The notes below the pieces were generated by a model. That model was not told where the DNA came from. It ran no database searches and was given only the letters and a program-made list of their open reading frames with translations. A DNA stretch of 20,040 nt, from positions 1 through 20,040 of the IMG/VR virus record IMGVR_UViG_3300044859_000023; one strand, written 5' to 3'. Of this stretch, positions 15,360 through 15,431 are shown piece after piece (positions within the stretch are counted from its first letter, which is position 1; each line of letters opens with the position of its first letter). The position numbers and the translations under genes were made by a program. This DNA is from a virus.

Positions 15360-15431
15360 CTATTTGTTCATTACGTACATAGTAACTTCAAAGCCAAAGC
15401 GCATTTCTGTTGCTGATGGTGATTTCCACAT
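15360..15431 (-). CDS. pqqA: PqqA-like PQQ precursor peptide (23 aa)
   Basis: ATG at 15431-15429 follows a perfect AAGGAG (15443-15438) with a 6-nt spacer; TAG is at 15362-15360. The 23 residues have the PqqA layout: M1-W2-K3, P5, E9, R11, G13, then E15-V-T-M-Y19, ending N22-K23. In known PqqA peptides the radical SAM enzyme PqqE, with chaperone PqqD, joins the Glu and Tyr of the E-V-T-x-Y core. The linked pair is excised and matured by PqqB, PqqC and a protease into pyrroloquinoline quinone. E15 and Y19 are at the same places as in the 23-residue enterobacterial form. No other pqq gene is visible, so a host pathway must act on it. PQQ serves methanol and other dehydrogenases, pointing to an auxiliary metabolic gene for a methylotroph-like host (inference). 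It has its own leader and a 3' hairpin. Confidence 0.9.
   Translation of the reverse strand: [23 protein letters not shown]

Follow-up and report, generated by a model that had tools for sequence, protein, structure and literature searches.

A stand-alone pqqA gene in a phage fragment and its probable role in host PQQ supply

The window analyzed here is the whole stretch of DNA of a virus record of 20,040 nucleotides (IMGVR_UViG_3300044859_000023). Its minus strand contains a 23-codon gene that we established to be a genuine pqqA of phage origin. We consider it quite probable that this gene was acquired from Methylophilaceae, is kept by selection as a stand-alone cassette and serves as an auxiliary metabolic gene that provides only the substrate, PqqA, and thereby raises the PQQ supply of the host.

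The pqqA gene and its surroundings in the phage

The window is a phage fragment with capsid, tail, lysis and replication genes. Its plus-strand side holds structural genes, among them the one for a virion protein of 1127 aa that contains a transglycosylase domain; further products are a major head protein, an M15 endolysin, and tail and head-closure proteins. The minus-strand side encodes an exonuclease, endonuclease I, a metallophosphoesterase and a class II ribonucleotide reductase (RNR). The pqqA gene is the final gene of the minus strand, 135 bases past an ORF of 53 amino acids, with the structural genes opposite. A megablast comparison of the window with phage records gave no match. The features around pqqA are the following:

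11873–15256, plus strand: virion protein of 1127 aa (lytic transglycosylase domain), adjacent to pqqA and convergent with it, also present in seven relatives
15261–15330, no strand assigned: long hairpin that separates the structural side from the convergent pqqA/RNR side (z = -5.32)
15360–15431, minus strand: pqqA coding sequence, 23 codons and stop, based on translation, profile matches and intact recurrence in relatives
15438–15443, minus strand: Shine-Dalgarno sequence AAGGAG, 6 nt 5' of the pqqA ATG
15465–15500, minus strand: inverted repeat TTTGTGTGTAATA...TATTACAGACAAA in the pqqA leader, second hairpin of the leader fold
15508–15547, minus strand: terminator-like hairpin separating the RNR operon from pqqA, with a stem of 17 pairs and a T-rich tail after it (1 found, 0.1 expected)
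15567–15728, minus strand: small ORF of 53 aa that closes the RNR operon ahead of the hairpin, its ATG overlapping the RNR stop, conserved in relatives; sequence MIEFTWETIGGLVFGAEIMDNQDFDVKGDNLKWVVVLHVGILRLVFSKYIMES
15725–17731, minus strand: class II RNR, 77% identical to that of the OM43 phages MEP401/402

An earlier note on this DNA had recognized a PqqA fingerprint in the small frame and had named a search with the family profile as a check. Each of the residues it listed is present in the translation of 15360–15431 (M1 W2, P5, R11, G13, the core E15 V16 T17 M18 Y19 and a basic end, K23), and the peptide scored above the cut-offs of both the Pfam PqqA profile PF08042 (37.2 bits, E 2.8e-9, cut-off 21.1) and the NCBIfam equivalog TIGR02107 (34.4 bits, cut-off 20). 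In six-frame searches this frame was the sole PqqA match in the complete 20,040-base record (E 5.8e-10), and 14 control genomes gave 0 matches. The length of 23 residues and the E15...Y19 pair conform to the PqqA format (about 22-29 residues with an E-x3-Y cross-link pair). Glu15 and Tyr19, which correspond to the cross-link pair Glu16/Tyr20 of M. extorquens PqqA (PMC10906245), are predicted to be the cross-link pair of the window peptide. The proposed ribosome site AAGGAG was likewise found, at 15443-15438, six bases ahead of the ATG.

The terminator-like hairpin at 15508–15547 is absent from the aligned relatives without pqqA; in L274 its structure is retained with altered bases. The pqqA leader folds better than 200 of 200 shuffles (z = -4.27), and its inverted repeat is a possible regulatory dyad. 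A similar element persists in L268 and L272, both of which are without pqqA. The long hairpin at 15261–15330, kept in relatives both with and without pqqA, is likely a bidirectional terminator or processing site. In one relative, L276, an extra ORF (homing-endonuclease-like by eye) lies between the RNR and the small ORF, and pqqA follows.

Distribution, selection and host group

Relatives of the window phage were recruited by the RNR alone, pqqA not being used. The earlier note had proposed to look for the same small frame in related phages; seven closely related contigs have it intact, directly following the RNR module (L263, L269, L270, L273, L274, L277 and L289), and seven others cleanly lack it at the aligned place (L264, L265, L266, L268, L271, L272 and L275). 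Among the RNR-related records, many of which are fragments, 13 of 35 carry pqqA, and phages of the MEP401 type have it at a different genome position. Since close relatives are without the gene and only these 13 records have it, pqqA is not essential. The final bases of pqqA, AAATAG, also stand at the empty sites of L265, L266, L268 and L272, which fits loss, but the match is too short to serve as proof. Absence or disruption of the frame in close relatives had been put forward as grounds for refutation. Absence did occur in some near-identical phages, but the frames were never broken, and such clean absences therefore indicate that the gene is accessory, not that it is false. Like a moron-type cassette, pqqA is present or absent between near-identical phages at a clean site; it is accessory, movable and retained where present.

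The viral set fetched with a degenerate pattern fixes residues 1-2 and 13-19, so that conservation at these positions was not counted as evidence; on the free codons of this set pN/pS was 0.286. A second set left the core motif free: its 19 distinct phage genes, found through the RNR or by tblastn with the whole peptide, gave a pN/pS of 0.147, and 20 of the 39 distinct changes in this unbiased set were synonymous, compared with 8.2 ± 2.2 expected (P < 5e-5). All 19 of these genes agree with host PqqA at Glu15, at Tyr19 and throughout the core. No decayed pqqA copies were present among the genes recruited by RNR or whole-peptide search, and no copies with an altered core emerged when these contigs were searched with the profile and by blastn, neither of which requires the core residues. 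Phage and host genes had pN/pS values of 0.16 and 0.13, respectively, in sets that were both fetched by patterns fixing part of the peptide, and the synonymous divergence between them was high (pS about 0.58). These substitution patterns show the signature of purifying selection on phage pqqA. Because the frame is intact after the RNR module in the seven RNR-recruited contigs, and because of the synonymous excess, it is not a chance ORF. A role of pqqA as an att site was also considered and was rejected on the grounds of the high synonymous divergence from hosts.

Counted with crude gene calls, 62 loci have the upstream neighbour of pqqA on the strand of pqqA itself and 57 have it on the other one, and among 100 dereplicated viral pqqA leaders 96 contain an AGGA/GGAG ribosome site. 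With no strand bias and with this ribosome site, pqqA thus appears to behave as its own transcription unit. The strand-independent placement suggests that it has its own promoter; the best sigma-70 site in the 100 leaders reached at least 10/12 in 11%, as against 6% of shuffles, which is not above chance.

A tblastn search of 50,697 phage records with the window peptide (E <= 1e-3) matched ten phage records, namely nine cultured methylophages (Venkman, MEP301, P19250A, MEP401, MEP402 and four Melnitz), representing several unrelated phage types, and one spring-water podovirus contig. The set of cultured methylophages behind this count is incomplete: MEP431-434, HIM624-A, Venkman EXVC038S and two more are listed in the taxonomy but did not turn up in the collection searched. 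Two weak further matches were to a mislabelled bacterial contig; this record (L128, CAKLQF020000010.1, 'Acinetobacter phage MD-2021a') is evidently bacterial chromosome, with ppk and pqqABCDE. A Methylobacterium-type PqqA query, of approximate sequence, matched no further phages. PqqA is annotated in none of the ten records: five have no feature at the place and five only a 'hypothetical protein', which agrees with the earlier remark that the frame lies below the usual limit of gene calling. In both records that were opened, Melnitz EXVC044M (L126) and MW202481 (L127), this label is on the opposite strand. In P19250A (L124) and Venkman (L123), as in these two, pqqA is either unannotated or under a wrong-strand label. 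A degenerate DNA pattern detected pqqA in at least 120 IMG/VR contigs. Under the loosest criterion the pqqA neighbourhoods form 8 unlinked groups, and a stricter criterion yields 30; in Venkman and the spring-water phage, about 85 bases of pqqA are the sole common stretch over 10 kb.

As regards the host, an 11-residue PqqA string was sought as a DNA pattern in 257 Gb of prokaryote genomes. It matched at least 120 loci, nearly all titled Methylophilaceae or Betaproteobacteria bins; among the matches listed, the titles were Methylotenera, Methylophilus, Methylobacillus, Methylovorus, Methylopumilus, OM43 and unnamed beta/Methylophilaceae bins. Judged from these matches, the string is close to a Methylophilaceae signature. 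The two commonest viral PqqA peptides are also the two that occur most often in hosts. Comparison with pqqA of candidate hosts, another check named in the earlier note, gave agreement with Methylophilaceae peptides in length, core residues and C-terminus (PF08042/TIGR02107). The window peptide differs from a host form of PqqA at residues 3-4 only, which are KS in the window and TT, TK or TS in hosts, and Thr3 is still present in the window relatives L270 and L274. Unlike the host gene, the window pqqA lies in a phage, unlinked to pqqBCDE and behind a phage hairpin leader.

The best matches between viral and host pqqA DNA have 86-92% identity, and in nearly every case the match is restricted to the gene and its ribosome site. 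A host origin of the pqqA leader was rejected, because the host match stops at the ribosome site, except for one AT-rich stretch in genome G144. The G144 match (L354, G144:C17) is an ordinary chromosomal solo pqqA of a small-genome Methylophilaceae, a monocistron with its own GC-rich terminator, and this arrangement parallels the phage cassette. The RNR of the window is nearer to that of the OM43 phages MEP401/402 than to those of other phage records. From these comparisons we infer that the window phage probably infects Methylophilaceae.

Proposed substrate supply and alternative explanations

The proposal of the earlier note that the phage supplies the substrate peptide without the enzymes was strengthened by a survey of 50 pqqA-bearing viral records (45 from IMG/VR and 5 cultured). 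Exactly one pqqA is present in each of the 50, and neither PqqE over the cut-off (0/50) nor PqqD (0/50) was detected. Linkage to pqqBCDE, which is typical of PqqA without defining it, is lacking in the viral records, as it is for the solo copies of hosts. Methanol dehydrogenase occurs alongside pqqA in one of the 50 records, L039 (IMGVR_UViG_3300025120_009955, 72 kb), where a PQQ methanol dehydrogenase (TIGR03075, over the cut-off) lies about 6 kb from pqqA. The hosts amplify pqqA and not pqqE: pqqA was found in 121 of 121 Methylophilaceae genomes, with a median of 4 copies (range 1-12) and more than one copy in 118, and PqqE over the cut-off in 59 of 60, nearly always single. Published Methylophilaceae genomes have 3-12 pqqA genes and single copies of the other pqq genes, and XoxF and PQQ synthesis are among the core genes (PMC4109929). 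For Methylovorus sp. MP688, PMC11317620 cites work according to which PqqA availability is a rate-determining step.

The proposed role builds on the gene, its family and phage context, its host-type sequence, the selection on it, the lack of companion enzymes and the multiple pqqA copies of hosts. Each PQQ uses up one molecule of PqqA, while the enzymes work repeatedly; a substrate gene of 72 bases would therefore be the cheapest lift of the pathway, and a phage could raise it with the substrate alone. An infecting phage would produce additional PqqA peptide, in which Glu15 would be cross-linked to Tyr19 by PqqD and PqqE of the host, and a host peptidase together with PqqB/PqqC would complete PQQ. 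The added PQQ would keep the XoxF/MxaF methanol dehydrogenase, the entry point of the host for carbon and energy, supplied during phage production. If expression and processing proceed in this way, the rise in PQQ would benefit the phage. One extra pqqA may add little beside several host copies, unless it is strongly expressed. In accordance with the concept of an auxiliary metabolic gene, the window is a true viral genome and its pqqA is a host-type gene in a pathway of the host, the latter being the inferred host of the window phage.

Several other explanations were weighed against this role. It is unlikely that a genuine PqqA is made for a use other than methanol dehydrogenase, such as the handling of lanthanides, the supply of further PQQ enzymes or a redox role of PQQ itself. 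In Methylorubrum, orphan pqqA genes do respond to the form of the lanthanide, and participation in lanthanide uptake has been suggested (PMC11317620), but with XoxF and PQQ synthesis both in the Methylophilaceae core (PMC4109929), methanol oxidation is the simplest sink. A little less likely is a neutral hitch-hiker or recombination landing site, in which host DNA spreads without a product that matters. The patchy presence in near-identical phages would fit such a site, as would the pair of Venkman and the spring-water phage with only the ~85-bp pqqA in common; purifying selection and synonymous bias, the Shine-Dalgarno sequence in 96 of 100 leaders and the intactness of all frames argue against it, and the pS of about 0.58 from hosts is contrary to an att-like site of identity.

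Lower still we rank the competitor raised in the earlier note, a decoy peptide that would occupy PqqD/PqqE and dampen host PQQ synthesis, for example so that methanol is oxidised, and formaldehyde formed, more slowly. Excess substrate could in principle tie up PqqD by titration, but a decoy would be free to lose Glu15, Tyr19 and the core, which are unchanged in 19 of 19 distinct phage genes and missing from no relative, and conservation is similarly strong in phage and host (0.16 and 0.13 in the pattern-fetched sets); the competitor is thus disfavoured. Finally, a bacterial or chimeric origin of the contig or of its relatives is hardly credible: mis-sorting is known in viral collections, as in 'Acinetobacter phage MD-2021a' with pqqB-C-D beside pqqA, but the window has capsid, endolysin, tail and RNR genes, seven other contigs have the same arrangement, cultured phage genomes contain pqqA, and no pqqE/pqqD was found in 50 records.

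Known systems and meaning

Substrate-only supply of PqqA by a phage can be compared with several known systems. Phage pqqA as a kind is already known by name, from a metagenomic phage (PMC7678222). That study of 2020 described the Lake Baikal viral population VP_266, a T4-like methylotroph phage with pqqA and methanol dehydrogenase, and read pqqA as an auxiliary metabolic gene. The window phage resembles VP_266 as a methylotroph phage with pqqA, but has no methanol dehydrogenase in the 20-kb window and belongs to a different, RNR-bearing lineage; VP_266 and L039 are alike in having methanol dehydrogenase together with pqqA. The same paper reported P19250A to be without any of its metabolic genes (PMC7678222); P19250A does contain an unannotated pqqA, and the statement is incorrect for this gene. 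Reservoir-sediment viruses have also been listed with pqqA (PMC13188868). In the papers that describe Venkman, Melnitz, MEP301 and MEP401/402, pqqA goes unmentioned. The breadth of pqqA in cultured methylophages and its systematic lack of annotation appear unreported in the literature searched, and this breadth, the invisibility to annotation and the gene-dosage logic appear to be new.

The orphan or solo pqqA genes of methylotrophs are, like phage pqqA, extra substrate genes away from pqqBCDE (PMC4109929, PMC9851590, PMC11317620), but they are chromosomal and the window gene is viral. In Venkman, MEP301, P19250A, MEP401, MEP402 and Melnitz, pqqA is stand-alone, single and of host type, as in the window, and those searched have no PqqE or PqqD; it lies, however, at other genome positions and has other neighbours. 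Bottleneck auxiliary metabolic genes such as cyanophage psbA add a fast-consumed component of a host pathway. In phage pqqA this component is the peptide substrate of a RiPP pathway, whereas in the psbA type it is an enzyme or protein subunit.

Because the gene is smaller than annotation limits, a widespread putative link between viruses and methanol oxidation was missed even in sequenced isolates. We tentatively propose, as a generalization that may well prove too broad, that pqqA is a near-universal, overlooked gene of Methylophilaceae phages, a mobile 72-base cassette repeatedly acquired by unrelated phages, by which infection would be regularly coupled to PqqA supply; some solo pqqA genes of hosts may have been exchanged with phages. 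The claim is directly testable in culture, with Venkman and Melnitz on H5P1, whose usual medium has 1 nM PQQ (PMC9004378) and could mask an effect, and with MEP401/402 on FZCC0133, and phage pqqA offers a clean test of the general idea that a pathway can be lifted by a consumed peptide alone. If the proposal is true, viruses control a cofactor pathway by a RiPP precursor peptide alone, of which we know of no earlier case, and they would do so in Methylophilaceae (OM43, LD28/Methylopumilus, Methylotenera), abundant one-carbon oxidisers of coastal and fresh water.
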